The position numbers were made by a program, and so were the translations under genes. Source: Thermotogaceae bacterium (GTDB lineage: Bacteria > Thermotogota > Thermotogae > B21-G9 > HyVt-16). From it: DNA of 40,249 nt. Below, in pieces: positions 477-32,530 of the stretch; the first letter of the stretch is position 1, and the number at the start of each line of letters is the position of its first letter. Under the pieces are notes generated by a model that had not been told where the DNA came from, did not search any database, and worked only from the letters and a program-made list of their open reading frames with translations. The stretch covers positions 1 through 40,249 of the forward strand of contig JARRBB010000011.1 in the NCBI GenBank assembly GCA_029981435.1. Direction: 5' to 3'.

Positions 477-1094
477 ATGAGATTTCTACTTGGTAGCCCT
501 TTGCTGATAGAAGAATTTGGCACCGTAGATGTTTTGATCTACGGTGGTTTTTTGCATACTATTTCAGACACAGCCATTACAATTCGTGGTGATGGCTCTC
601 AGGCAGAGATTTACAAGAGTGGCTCCCTAGTCGCAAGACGAAAAACCAGTAAAGATGTAGAGGTTGAAAAACTATTTTTTGAGCCGATAAAGGGTTTTAA
701 GGTTTTTTTAGGAATAAATGATGATTTACAGGATGCTGACAATTTCAGATTGATATTTTATCTTGGAATACCGTTAACGGTTGTTTTCGCCGACAGAATA
801 GCAATAGAACCTCAGGAAGTTTTTGCGAGATTCTGGCCAGTTGCTCAGGATAATTTTTCTGTTGTTGTTTCGTGTCTGAAAGATGATAAGAACAACTCTT
901 TTTTTTACAGTGTTTTCGCCCCAATAGAACTCACTGGTGATAAAACAGGGGTGATCTGTAATCTGCAACCACATTATTACTTCGAGTTCAACTTTTCAAC
1001 TTTGAATCAATTGAAACGTAAAGATCCTGTCTATCTTAAAATGAAAGATCCATCTTATCTTTCGTTTCTGAAAAAACATTTTAAAGAACAGTAA
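477..1094 (+). CDS. Conserved-looking protein of unknown function (205 aa)
   Basis: I do not recognise a family. The 205-residue product has no signal peptide and no long hydrophobic segment. It is rich in beta-strand-like alternating stretches (residues 1-60 and 80-130) and ends in a basic segment (LKRKDPVYLKMKDPSYLSFLKKHF). The ATG has AGAGGTG seven bases upstream, and the gene ends 13 bp before the prenyl synthase start. Codon use matches its neighbours, so it is probably real and cotranscribed. The unusual feature is the strong terminator-shaped hairpin within codons 15-26, which should limit its expression from the rpsT promoter. Confidence 0.75.
   Translation: MRFLLGSPLLIEEFGTVDVLIYGGFLHTISDTAITIRGDGSQAEIYKSGSLVARRKTSKDVEVEKLFFEPIKGFKVFLGINDDLQDADNFRLIFYLGIPLTVVFADRIAIEPQEVFARFWPVAQDNFSVVVSCLKDDKNNSFFYSVFAPIELTGDKTGVICNLQPHYYFEFNFSTLNQLKRKDPVYLKMKDPSYLSFLKKHFKEQ
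521..553 (+). terminator. Intrinsic-terminator-shaped hairpin inside the unknown gene, after rpsT
   Basis: CACCGTAGAT (521-530), loop GTTTTG, ATCTACGGTG (537-546), then G and six T. The 10-bp stem is perfect. It lies 71 bp after the rpsT stop but inside the next reading frame (codons 15-26). By shape this is a full intrinsic terminator; whether it works while the frame is being translated is unknown. Confidence 0.65.
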
Positions 1095-8372: not shown

Positions 8373-9064
8373 CTCAACAACACCTCACTCAATATTCCAA
8401 GAAACACTAATAATAATGTGTACGCAAAAACATCAACAGTCTCGAGCTTGCTTTTTGCCCATGATATCTCCACACCTATTCCTTTAGATCCCGCCATAAA
8501 CTCAGCAACAACAACGGATTTCCATAAAAGACCACTTGAAACAGAAACAGCCGAAACAATGAACGGCAACAAGGAGCCAAGATAAATATCTCTGAAGATT
8601 TTAATTTTTCTAACTTTGTAAACCTTTGCCATTTCGACAAGTTTTTTGTCGATATTGAGAACTCCTTCATAGACGTTCAAAGCTATTACCGGAAAAAGCG
8701 TTATGAAAACTATAACCACAGGTCCTTTGTTCCCAATTCCCCACCAGAGTATGGCAAGTGCGAGCCAGGAAACTATCGGCACGGACTGAACAATCGATAT
8801 CAAAGGTCTTAATAACTCATAGAATAATTGGTTCAATCCCATCACAAATCCAACTATGAAGCCAAAAAAAATAGCCAGTGCAAAACCTGCAAACGCTTTT
8901 AAAAAAGTGCTCAACAGGGGAGAAAACAACTCCCCTGTTGTTATGAGCTGAATCAATCTCACAATGGTTTTAAAGGGAGACGGTAAAAGCAGTTCAGAAT
9001 TCACCATCAAAGTTGCTATTTCCCATAAAATAAGCGCAATTAAAATCCCAAGTATCTTCTTCAA
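8345..9064 (-). CDS. ABC importer permease (NitT/TauT/SsuC type)
   Basis: 239 residues with about six hydrophobic segments. The EAA loop is recognisable at EMAKVYKVRKIKIFRDIYLGSLLPF (~135-160), the contact with the ATPase, and the SVPIVSWLALAILWWGIG stretch is typical of the SsuC/TauC family. It starts with ATG overlapping the binding-protein stop by 4 bp (ATGA), implying translational coupling. A terminator-like hairpin lies at about codons 41-54. The substrate class (aromatic/sulfonate/pyrimidine/riboflavin-like) cannot be decided. Confidence 0.85.
   Translation of the reverse strand: MKKILGILIALILWEIATLMVNSELLLPSPFKTIVRLIQLITTGELFSPLLSTFLKAFAGFALAIFFGFIVGFVMGLNQLFYELLRPLISIVQSVPIVSWLALAILWWGIGNKGPVVIVFITLFPVIALNVYEGVLNIDKKLVEMAKVYKVRKIKIFRDIYLGSLLPFIVSAVSVSSGLLWKSVVVAEFMAGSKGIGVEISWAKSKLETVDVFAYTLLLVFLGILSEVLLRSIEKRFSY
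8901..8940 (-). terminator. Intrinsic-terminator-shaped hairpin inside the permease gene
   Basis: On the minus strand: CAACAGGGGA (8940-8931), a 9-nt loop, TCCCCTGTTG (8921-8912), AGCAC, then six T (8906-8901). The 10-bp stem is perfect. Flanking GCTC/GAGC could extend it past a 4-nt bulge. It lies 120 bp after the binding-protein stop, so it would make binding-protein mRNA exceed permease/ATPase mRNA. Confidence 0.55.
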
Positions 9065-19829: not shown

Positions 19830-21142
19830 ATTATTTAGAGGCTTTGAATTACCTTTATACGGATAGGAATTTTTCAAAAATTAGACCTGGTTTGAAAAGA
19901 GTGAAAGAACTCTTGGAACATTTCGGGAATCCTCAGAACCATTACCAGATTGTTCACATAACTGGTACTAACGGCAAAGGGAGTACCAGTTATTTCCTTT
20001 ACAGTATTTTAAAAAAGGTAACCGATTTGAAAGTCGGGCTTTACACATCGCCACATTTGAGTTCTTTCAGAGAAAGGATAGTTGTTAATGATGAGAAAGT
20101 ATCCAAAGACTATATAGTGGAATTTGTTAAAAGTGCAATTCCAATAGTTAAAAAGATGGATAGTAAAGGTCCCGAATACATGTCAACTTTTTTCGAATTA
20201 ACAACTGCTATGGCTTTTAAGTATTTCAAGGATATGGGAGTTGACATAGTAGTTCTGGAAGTCGGGCTCGGTGGAAGATACGACGCAACGAATGTGGTTG
20301 AAAATCCTCTGGTAAGTGTTATAACAACTGTAGATCTCGAACATACTCGAATACTTGGAGACACGATCGAAAAAATAGCTTTCGAAAAAGCAGGAATAAT
20401 TAAAGAAAATTCCCTTGTTGTTACTGGTGAAACAAAAGCAGGAGCTCTGAATGTGATAAAGGAAGAAGCAGTAAAGAAAAACTCAAAAGTTTATGTTTAT
20501 AATCAGGATTTCCGATATAAAAACATCAGACTTGCTTTGAATCAAAATCTTTTTGATTACGAAGGGATCAATAGGAAACTCGAAAATATCGAACTGACCA
20601 TGAACGGTAAACATCAATTTCTGAACTGTTCGATAGCACTGGCTGCATTTGAAAACATTGAAGAGCAACTTGGTTTGAGAGTATCAGATGAAAAAATCAA
20701 GGCAGCACTCAAGAACGCGGTATGGCCCGGAAGATTTGAACTAATCGAGTTCAATAGTAAGAGTCTGATAATCGATGGTGCACATAATCCGGCAGCTTTT
20801 AAGAAACTCAGAGAATCTATTGAAATTTATTTTCCAGATAAAAGGAAGATAGCAATCATAGGTATTTTAGATGATAAGGATTATAAAGCCATGCTTCAAG
20901 AAATAAAAGATGTTTTTGAAAAGATGATACTGACCCGACCCCTCAGTAATCGAACAACCAATATTATGGAAATTCACAGATATCTGAAGACTGTAAAACA
21001 ACAATCCGAATACATAGAATCACCTTTAAATGCTTTTAAAAAAGCAATTGCCGATTTAAAAGACGATGAAATACTTGTAGTAACAGGGTCTTTGTATCTG
21101 GCTGGTTATTTGAGAAATTACATCGATACGATAAAACGATAA
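19826..21142 (+). CDS. folC: Folylpolyglutamate synthase / dihydrofolate synthase
   Basis: 438 residues, adds glutamates to folate (and probably to dihydropteroate) using ATP. P-loop HITGTNGKGSTSYFLYSIL (~48-66), the omega-loop TSPHLSSFRERI (~75), LEVGLGGRYDATNVV (~147) and IIDGAHNPAAF (~312) are all family signatures. Starts within the valS stop (ATGA), so its translation is coupled. Substrate range cannot be read. Confidence 0.93.
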   Translation: MNYLEALNYLYTDRNFSKIRPGLKRVKELLEHFGNPQNHYQIVHITGTNGKGSTSYFLYSILKKVTDLKVGLYTSPHLSSFRERIVVNDEKVSKDYIVEFVKSAIPIVKKMDSKGPEYMSTFFELTTAMAFKYFKDMGVDIVVLEVGLGGRYDATNVVENPLVSVITTVDLEHTRILGDTIEKIAFEKAGIIKENSLVVTGETKAGALNVIKEEAVKKNSKVYVYNQDFRYKNIRLALNQNLFDYEGINRKLENIELTMNGKHQFLNCSIALAAFENIEEQLGLRVSDEKIKAALKNAVWPGRFELIEFNSKSLIIDGAHNPAAFKKLRESIEIYFPDKRKIAIIGILDDKDYKAMLQEIKDVFEKMILTRPLSNRTTNIMEIHRYLKTVKQQSEYIESPLNAFKKAIADLKDDEILVVTGSLYLAGYLRNYIDTIKR

Positions 21143-24641: not shown

Positions 24642-25292
24642 ATGGTTCAAGCAGTCGAACTTGAAGTTCTGAAACGTGAAGAATCAAAAACCAGTAAAGC
24701 AAAAAAACTCAGAAGGAAAAATCTTATACCCGGAGTTGTTTATGGACCTGAAACCGAACCTTTGATGATAAGTGTTGATAAGACTAAAGTGGATTCGCTT
24801 TTAGCAAGGGTTAGCGAAACAACCCGTATCAAATTGCTGGTAAAAAGTAACGATGGTGTGATTCAAAAGAATGTATTTGTAAAAGAAATTCAGAGAAACA
24901 AAGTGAATGATTCTGTGATTCACATCGATTTCTATGAACCAGCAAAAGGACACACAATGCATATCCACATACCGTTGCATTTTGTTGGTAAGCCCAAAGG
25001 TGTCGAAAAAGGTGGACTCGAAGATATCATTCATCATGAATTGCCAGTAGAAGTACTACCGGATAAAATCGTTGAACATATAGAAGTAGACGTTTCGCAA
25101 GTTGATTTGGGTGAATCTTTGAGGGTCAAAGACATCCAGTTGCCAGAAGGAATAAAGGTAATGCTTGATCCTGAAGAAGTTATAATGACTATAATAGCTC
25201 CACGTGTTTCTGAAGAAGTAGTGGAAGAAGTTACTGAGGAAGAAGAACCCGAAGTAATAGGTAAAGGTAAGGAAGAAGAGGAGGAAGAATAA
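24642..25292 (+). CDS. rplY: 50S ribosomal protein L25 (general stress protein Ctc type)
   Basis: 216 residues, the long two-domain form of L25 that binds 5S rRNA. N-terminal L25 domain (~1-95, with LRRKNLIPGVVYGPETEPL), C-terminal TL5/Ctc beta domain (~100-190, HIPLHFVGKPKGVEKGG...VEVLPDKIVEHIEVDVS) and an acidic tail (VTEEEEPEV..EEEEEE). ATG 24642 behind GGAGGG. Followed after 2 bp by pth, a common pairing. A terminator-like hairpin 37 bp after its stop lies inside pth. Confidence 0.96.
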   Translation: MVQAVELEVLKREESKTSKAKKLRRKNLIPGVVYGPETEPLMISVDKTKVDSLLARVSETTRIKLLVKSNDGVIQKNVFVKEIQRNKVNDSVIHIDFYEPAKGHTMHIHIPLHFVGKPKGVEKGGLEDIIHHELPVEVLPDKIVEHIEVDVSQVDLGESLRVKDIQLPEGIKVMLDPEEVIMTIIAPRVSEEVVEEVTEEEEPEVIGKGKEEEEEE

Positions 25293-25294
25293 CC

Positions 25295-25870
25295 CTGATA
25301 AAGTTGCTTGTTGGACTGGGGAATCCAGGCCCACGTTATGCTTTCACAAGGCATAACGTGGGTTTTATGGTTATAGATGAAATACTCAAAGGTCACAGAT
25401 TTGATTATATTCAAAGAAATAAAAGTTATGATTTAGGGAAAATAACCATCGATGAAGAAAGTCTGTTTTTTTTGAAACCTTTGACATTCATGAATCTCAG
25501 TGGTACCGTTTTACCAGAGGTTTTAAATATTTTGAAAATCAATTACACTGAAATTCTGGTAATATACGATGATATTGCATTGCCACTAGGGAAAATAAGA
25601 ATTCGAAAAAACGATTCAAGTGGTGGACACAACGGTATAAAATCTGTGATCCAGTATCTTGGAACACAGGATTTTGCAAGGTTAAGGATCGGCATAGGTC
25701 CTAAACCTGAAGGCATTACACTGACTGATTTTGTGCTTGGTGAATTCACAGAAGAAGAATTCGACATATTGAAAAAAGTTCTTAAAATTTCTGTAGAAGC
25801 AATTGAATGTATATTACACAATGGTTTTGAAGAAGCTATGAGGGTTTACAACAGTTTCGAACTTTTTTGA
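25295..25870 (+). CDS. pth: Peptidyl-tRNA hydrolase
   Basis: About 191 residues; frees tRNA from dropped peptidyl-tRNA. Signature residues: Asn in LVGLGNPG, catalytic His in TRHNVGF (~23), LKPLTFMNLSG and Asp in IYDDIALPLGKIR (~94). The only standard start in frame near the beginning is TTG 25304, but it lies 19 bases from GAGGAGG and would cut off the first strand; CTG 25295 gives (M)IKLLVGLGNPG, the family pattern, with spacing of 7-10 to AGGAAG/GGAGG. I chose CTG; ATA 25298 is another option. Codons 12-24 form a 12-bp perfect hairpin. Confidence 0.9.
   Translation: MIKLLVGLGNPGPRYAFTRHNVGFMVIDEILKGHRFDYIQRNKSYDLGKITIDEESLFFLKPLTFMNLSGTVLPEVLNILKINYTEILVIYDDIALPLGKIRIRKNDSSGGHNGIKSVIQYLGTQDFARLRIGIGPKPEGITLTDFVLGEFTEEEFDILKKVLKISVEAIECILHNGFEEAMRVYNSFELF
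25330..25366 (+). terminator. Terminator-shaped hairpin inside pth, after rplY
   Basis: CCCACGTTATGC (25330-25341), a 9-nt loop, GCATAACGTGGG (25351-25362), then TTTT. The stem is a perfect 12 bp, and G-T pairs could extend it. It encodes the conserved GPRYAFTRHNVG of pth, and lies 37 bp after the rplY stop. Shape and place suggest attenuation of pth relative to rplY. Confidence 0.55.
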
Positions 25871-28160: not shown

Positions 28161-28189
28161 AAATCCCGGAGTTAATCTCCGGGATTTTT
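28161..28189 (+). terminator. Intrinsic terminator of the alkaline phosphatase gene
   Basis: AAATCCCGGAG - TTAAT - CTCCGGGATTT: perfect 11-bp stem running into a T5 tract, 25 bp after the stop codon. Confidence 0.88.
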
Positions 28190-32504: not shown

Positions 32505-32530
32505 GCCCCGAGTTCATACTCGGGGCTTTT
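32505..32530 (+). terminator. Intrinsic terminator of the alcohol dehydrogenase operon
   Basis: GCCCCGAGT - TCAT - ACTCGGGGC, perfect 9-bp stem, then TTTTCTTTC. The convergent HAD gene ends inside it: its stop codon is in the loop and its last codons form one stem arm. The minus-strand side lacks a T-run. Confidence 0.85.

Follow-up and report, generated by a model that had tools for sequence, protein, structure and literature searches.

The question raised by this locus is why a perfect RNA hairpin should lie in the active-site codons of pth, the gene of peptidyl-tRNA hydrolase, directly behind the ribosomal protein gene rplY. We studied it in a stretch of 40,249 nt from a Thermotogaceae bacterium (contig JARRBB010000011.1; “the window” in the following), where the two genes belong to the gene order glmU-prs-rplY-pth-nadK, all on the + strand. 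Comparison with relatives indicates that the hairpin is real and functional, its most probable role being to delimit the message of rplY upstream. The relevant features of the window are:

24642-25292, + strand: rplY (bL25/Ctc; NCBIfam TIGR00731, 138.7 bits against a cut-off of 73.1)
25298-25870, + strand: pth (peptidyl-tRNA hydrolase; NCBIfam TIGR00447, 187 bits; relatives in the PDB), which carries the hairpin
25330-25341, + strand: 5' arm CCCACGTTATGC (Gly third base, Pro CCA, Arg CGT, Tyr TAT, Ala first two bases)
25342-25350, + strand: loop TTTCACAAG, which varies between relatives
25351-25362, + strand: 3' arm GCATAACGTGGG (Arg third base, catalytic His CAT, Asn AAC, Val GTG, Gly first two bases)
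25363-25366, + strand: short U run after the stem (Gly third base and Phe TTT)

A perfect hairpin in the active-site codons of pth

A preliminary description of this DNA had pointed to a perfect 12-bp hairpin with four T's at 25330-25366, 37 bp past the rplY stop, and this is exactly what the sequence holds: CCCACGTTATGC-TTTCACAAG-GCATAACGTGGG-TTTT forms 12 Watson-Crick pairs between 25330-25341 and 25351-25362 around a 9-nt loop, with its onset 37 nt 3' of the stop codon at 25290-25292. As also described, it covers the conserved TRHN(V)G codons, including that of the catalytic His, but the numbering as pth codons 12-24 has to be corrected to codons 9-20 or 11-22, counted from TTG 25304 or ATA 25298, respectively, as the start of the gene. 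The predicted fold lengthens the stem to about 15-16 pairs with a 3-nt loop by inner G.U and A-U pairs (T.G, T-A, T-A). The energy of the stem is -22 kcal/mol at 37 °C, it remains folded in silico at 65-80 °C, and the 141-nt fold around it has a z of -3.4. Such stems had been described as rare by chance in 40 kb, and dinucleotide shuffles of the window indeed give only about 0.08 perfect 12-bp stems per 40 kb (loop 3-20), compared to 2 that were observed. Rfam yielded no gathering-level match anywhere in the window and only far sub-threshold ones at the hairpin site, and a known Rfam element was therefore discarded as an explanation.

The start of pth deserves a separate remark, both in the window (25289-25306) and at L005, L008, L020, L084, L009, L011, and L079 (family f10; we code relatives by family, f, and genus, g). 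In genera g16 and g21 of f10, the rplY stop is followed by AGGAGG...AUA/AUU with no in-frame ATG, GTG, or TTG nearby, so that the gene appears to be without a canonical start codon there. In our genome, ATA 25298 suits the usual MKLLVGLGNPG beginning better than TTG 25304, and a non-canonical AUA/AUU start of pth, like that of infC, is possible.

The second perfect 12-bp stem of the window lies at 19958-19993 in the P-loop codons of folC. Of 29 relatives that share the amino-acid motif, not one has a corresponding stem of as little as 8 bp (0/29); perfect pairing within a conserved motif thus does not by itself entail conservation. An 11-bp stem at 8912-8940 (- strand) is likewise not conserved among relatives. 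More generally, perfect stems of 10 bp or more occur inside genes at four places in the window (521-546, 8912-8940 on the - strand, 19958-19993, and 25330-25362), in each case no more than 135 nt into a gene that is internal to an operon, and in 315 kb sampled from this genome we counted 7 such stems starting no further than 150 nt from a gene start versus 0.85 +/- 0.9 after shuffling of synonymous codons. This genome may thus more widely tend to put operon-internal stem-loops into the downstream gene. Among the window stems tested, only the one in pth was conserved, with a single relative available for 521-546.

Distribution of the stem among relatives

Our sample comprised about 95-97 pth loci from 103 genomes of the Thermotogae class plus 45 loci found by protein search in a wider genome collection, nearly all of them from other phyla. 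It includes one genome of the same order (G001) and none from the genus or family of our bacterium. Members of one family do not count as independent observations, and our claims rest on the pattern between families. The stem, CCACGTTATGY-N9-RCATAACGTGG, is found in 62-63 of about 95 pth genes of the class, covering 23 genera and 8 families, and this despite the fact that the Pth proteins of the relatives are mostly only 40-60% identical to the one studied here. It is missing from G001, whose contig begins at pth, and was not found at the homologous pth position in the other phyla examined. On a tree of L25 and Pth that was built with the stem codons left out, about 8 changes are needed to account for its distribution, which is compatible with an origin early on and repeated later losses.

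Selection on codons and on the sense-strand RNA, and an apparent effect on the protein

The GNPGxxYxxTRHN motif is partly codable as a palindrome, and the unconserved folC stem of the same length may itself be due to chance, so that mere coincidence, brought about by codon usage where the protein is conserved, had to be considered. Our codon null keeps the amino acids fixed and redraws codons from the usage of pth and rplY (not of whole genomes), smoothed for each genus by its family. Stem-bearing genera reach 10-12 Watson-Crick pairs against about 6 expected, with P <= 0.003 in most of these genera independently, and in our genome all 12 pairs were attained in 0 of 4000 synonymous redraws (null mean, 6.0 pairs). 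Pairing in stem-less genera is at the codon-null expectation without any excess, which makes for an all-or-none split. The rare Arg codon CGT, which accounts for 0.6-26% of Arg codons in stem-bearing genera, is used in 60 of the 60 stem-bearing genomes with Arg at this position, and the next Tyr is encoded by TAT in every case. Coincidence is thereby refuted, with practically nothing left to recommend it.

The same conclusion can be read from individual codons. Arg CGT, Tyr TAT, His CAT, and Val GTG show a codon identity of 1.00 across families, and the stem contains all six of the pth codons with the strongest synonymous conservation, none of which stands out in stem-less genomes. For the Pro codon in the stem, CCA (47) and CCG (14) are used but never CCC or CCT. 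Overall, 97.3% of stem cells are paired, compared to 27-55% if the partner is slid. The preliminary description had suggested that the codons seem to be chosen so as to yield the stem, and that the 5' codons of pth be checked for covariation in relatives; the first is strongly supported by the codon null and the uniform use of CGT, and the second revealed compensatory changes at stem pairs 4, 6, and 12. Some of these alter the protein, as in L012, where Arg changed to His (CGT to CAT) together with AAC to AAT, or in L022 and L125, where CCA to CCG is accompanied by Val to Ala (GTG to GCG).

Within the core of the stem (pairs 2-11), G.U occurs in 15 cells and A.C in none. Since G.U is tolerated and A.C absent, the molecule under selection is, as far as these comparisons tell, the sense-strand RNA, and selection on the stem at the RNA level can be regarded as established by them. 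This weighs against a role of the DNA itself, in which the dyad would be bound by a dimeric protein as its operator or serve as a site of recombination. Its symmetric sequence with arms 21 bp apart from centre to centre would suit such a site, but the toleration of sense-strand G.U (CCG opposite T) would not, and the sequence is almost wholly determined by amino acids and pairing. Furthermore, a pattern search allowing up to 3 mismatches in the 103 genomes retrieved a single copy per genome, within pth, and only three further sites, all with 3 mismatches, whose number does not exceed that obtained with the reversed pattern as a control. We therefore consider a DNA-level dyad highly improbable, and a multi-copy regulatory site was discarded on the grounds of the single copy per genome.

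The RNA also appears to have left its mark on the protein. Nearly all stem-bearing genomes have Pro-Arg after GNPG, whereas these residues are varied in stem-less ones, and because of this difference it seems that the RNA stem fixes these two residues of Pth. Relatives that encode the same amino acids without forming the stem, which would speak against tuned codons, were not found among stem-bearing lineages, and the lineages without stem have mostly changed the Pro-Arg residues, too.

Loss and replacement of the stem

If the stem serves the rplY/pth junction, the lineages that lack it are of particular interest. The stem-less genera g13 and g36 of family f10 have 75-171 nt between the rplY stop and the GLGNPG codons, and in 9/9 genomes this interval contains a C5/G5 hairpin and, after it, a run of T's:

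rplY-pth intergenic region of L013, L028, L087, L088, L089, L094, L099, L102, and L114 (f10 g13/g36): C5/G5 terminator-like hairpin

This hairpin was apparently gained upon loss of the in-gene stem, judging from its distribution, and its gain counts as a single evolutionary event. Another four stem-less genera (f3 g30, f5 g10, f5 g19, and f7 g11) instead carry another strong hairpin immediately 5' of the stem position, in the GLGNPGP codons, with about -18 to -22 kcal/mol and z of -2.8 to -4.0, and no U's directly follow it. We observed this second hairpin at L116, L126, L132, L025, and L006 as well as L021, L022, and L002, mostly in lineages without the main stem. No obvious substitute hairpin was seen in stem-less f5 g14/g5, f6, f11 g23/g37/g38, and f4 g4. 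In other phyla, terminator-like hairpins often lie between rplY and pth where the gap suffices (e.g., L032, L042, L043, L048, L064, and L066). The comparison of lineages thus establishes that in some of them the stem has been replaced at this junction by other stem-loops or an intergenic terminator.

The GLGNPGP hairpin invites the idea of a classical attenuator in which it and the main stem would be mutually exclusive and switched by translation of pth or another signal. Family f11 and f7 g7 indeed have a strong upstream hairpin that shares the GGCCCAC segment, but most stem-bearing genera, and our genome with them, pair no better in the alternative stem than the codon null predicts (z near 0), which argues against a conserved antiterminator and makes such a switch improbable. 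The preliminary description had also proposed that pth expression might depend on its own translation. We found no support for this in the form of a conserved alternative pairing or leader or of synonymous constraint upstream. Attenuation or autoregulation of Pth by the stem is possible, but is unsupported because any sign of a conserved antiterminator or leader is missing. One version of it, an attenuator in which the progress of ribosomes on pth (reporting the status of Pth and peptidyl-tRNA drop-off) would set pth and nadK mRNA levels, strikes us as similarly improbable; if true, it would be an RNA feedback loop encoded in the active-site codons of the enzyme itself.

U tail and proposed function

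In all relatives where rplY could be located, it is found directly 5' of pth on the same strand; the only exceptions are L010 and L103, whose contigs begin at pth. The base of the stem lies 28-47 nt downstream of the rplY stop in stem-bearing genomes, where the gap between the two genes is only a few nucleotides, so that the element sits inside pth. This location of the stem is as firmly established by the sequences as the selection on its U tail: the third base of Gly is T in 63% of stem-bearing genomes versus a background of 31%, and the following Phe is TTT in 89% versus 64% (Fisher tests).

A stable hairpin near the rplY/pth operon junction is what an intrinsic terminator calls for. However, the U run (UUUU here) elsewhere comprises 3-6 U and is interrupted by G or C in some families, and a strong intrinsic terminator is less supported for this reason; several members of f8 and f9 have near-zero scores in a terminator formula. 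These short U runs, together with replacement hairpins that are not followed by U's and would suit a barrier better than a terminator, keep an exonuclease barrier in play. As local yardsticks, terminator-like gene-end stems are present in the window at 28161-28187 and 32505-32526 (AAATCCCGGAG..CTCCGGGATTT and GCCCCGAGT..ACTCGGGGC).

Taken together, the upstream position of rplY, the replacements after stem loss, the enrichment of U, and the predicted folding at 65-80 °C lead us to favour an operon-internal 3'-end stem-loop for rplY, which would probably act as a partial terminator and/or exonuclease barrier and set the ratio of L25 to Pth. Between these two modes, partial intrinsic termination would be slightly ahead of a pure exonuclease barrier in what is close to an even balance. 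The stem would fold as RNA polymerase leaves rplY, 28-47 nt past the stop and just outside the footprint of the terminating ribosome. With the stem and U run in place, some transcripts would end there and/or 3'-to-5' exonucleases would be blocked, and the abundant L25 mRNA would thereby be uncoupled from the scarce pth-nadK message. Being part of pth, the element would dictate synonymous codons as well as the Pro-Arg residues after GNPG. What we infer from the comparisons is that transcripts terminate or exonucleases are blocked at the stem and that stoichiometry is affected, and the relatives strongly support the earlier suggestion that the stem could set the L25:Pth ratio.

A device at the level of translation would instead have the stem stall early elongation on pth, with drop-off or a ribosome queue tuning or autoregulating Pth synthesis. 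The stem is positioned just past the initiation footprint and nearly fixed relative to the pth start, some of its carriers have weak AUA/AUU/TTG starts, and Pth acts on early drop-off products according to PMC10192219. Nevertheless, this reading is unlikely, given that it leaves unexplained both the preference for a U tail and the intergenic terminator that f10 g13/g36 gained after rplY upon stem loss, and that neither synonymous constraint nor a conserved leader is seen 5' of the stem. Three further candidates were rejected: sequestration of the ribosome-binding site (the stem is beyond the initiation footprint), a programmed frameshift from rplY (28-47 nt from its stop is too far), and a mimic of the tRNA T-arm bound by Pth (the loop is unconserved and follows codon choice).

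Relation to known systems and significance

The proposed 3'-end stem-loop for rplY shares a GC-containing stem, a U-biased tail, and its operon junction with intrinsic (Rho-independent) terminators, including the rplY/pth one of f10 g13/g36, but is located inside an essential coding sequence and has a U run of only 3-6 nt. The stabilising element of malE is intergenic. Like REP-type malE/malF hairpins, the pth stem would protect the cistron before it and set the proportions of gene products in its operon, but it is codon-embedded and single-copy.

Provisionally, and by analogy, the closest known kind are the protective structures embedded in coding sequences of E. coli operons (Dar and Sorek 2018, PMC5927463, where malEFG decay is also cited). 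That study described structures that protect upstream genes from decay, 17/26 of them within the downstream coding sequence, 107 +/- 56 nt into the gene and with conserved wobble positions; they were compared among enterobacteria, argued not to be terminators, and thought to raise the mRNA of the upstream gene. The pth stem is likewise a stable stem-loop, lies inside a downstream operon gene near its start, and is conserved in structure and wobble positions. It differs by beginning 26-32 nt into the gene, by its selected U tail, by class-wide conservation, and by fixing amino acids. The literature offered nothing specific on rplY-pth terminators, a hairpin in pth, or RNA structures in Thermotogae coding sequences, and the main text of the T. 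maritima transcriptome paper (PMC3636130) mentions neither rplY nor peptidyl-tRNA hydrolase. New here would be how deeply the element is conserved, that it overlies catalytic codons, that it captures amino-acid identities, and that other stem-loops have replaced it.

In Pth, an essential enzyme of deep conservation, the catalytic motif is thus overlaid by an RNA signal that most of a bacterial class has retained. Pro-Arg, free to vary elsewhere, appears fixed by the RNA, which would make this a clean natural case of an RNA function constraining protein sequence. Since the junction has been re-solved several ways, by the in-gene stem, an alternative in-gene stem, or an intergenic terminator, the separation of a ribosomal-protein message from that of a low-abundance enzyme within one operon would be directly testable.
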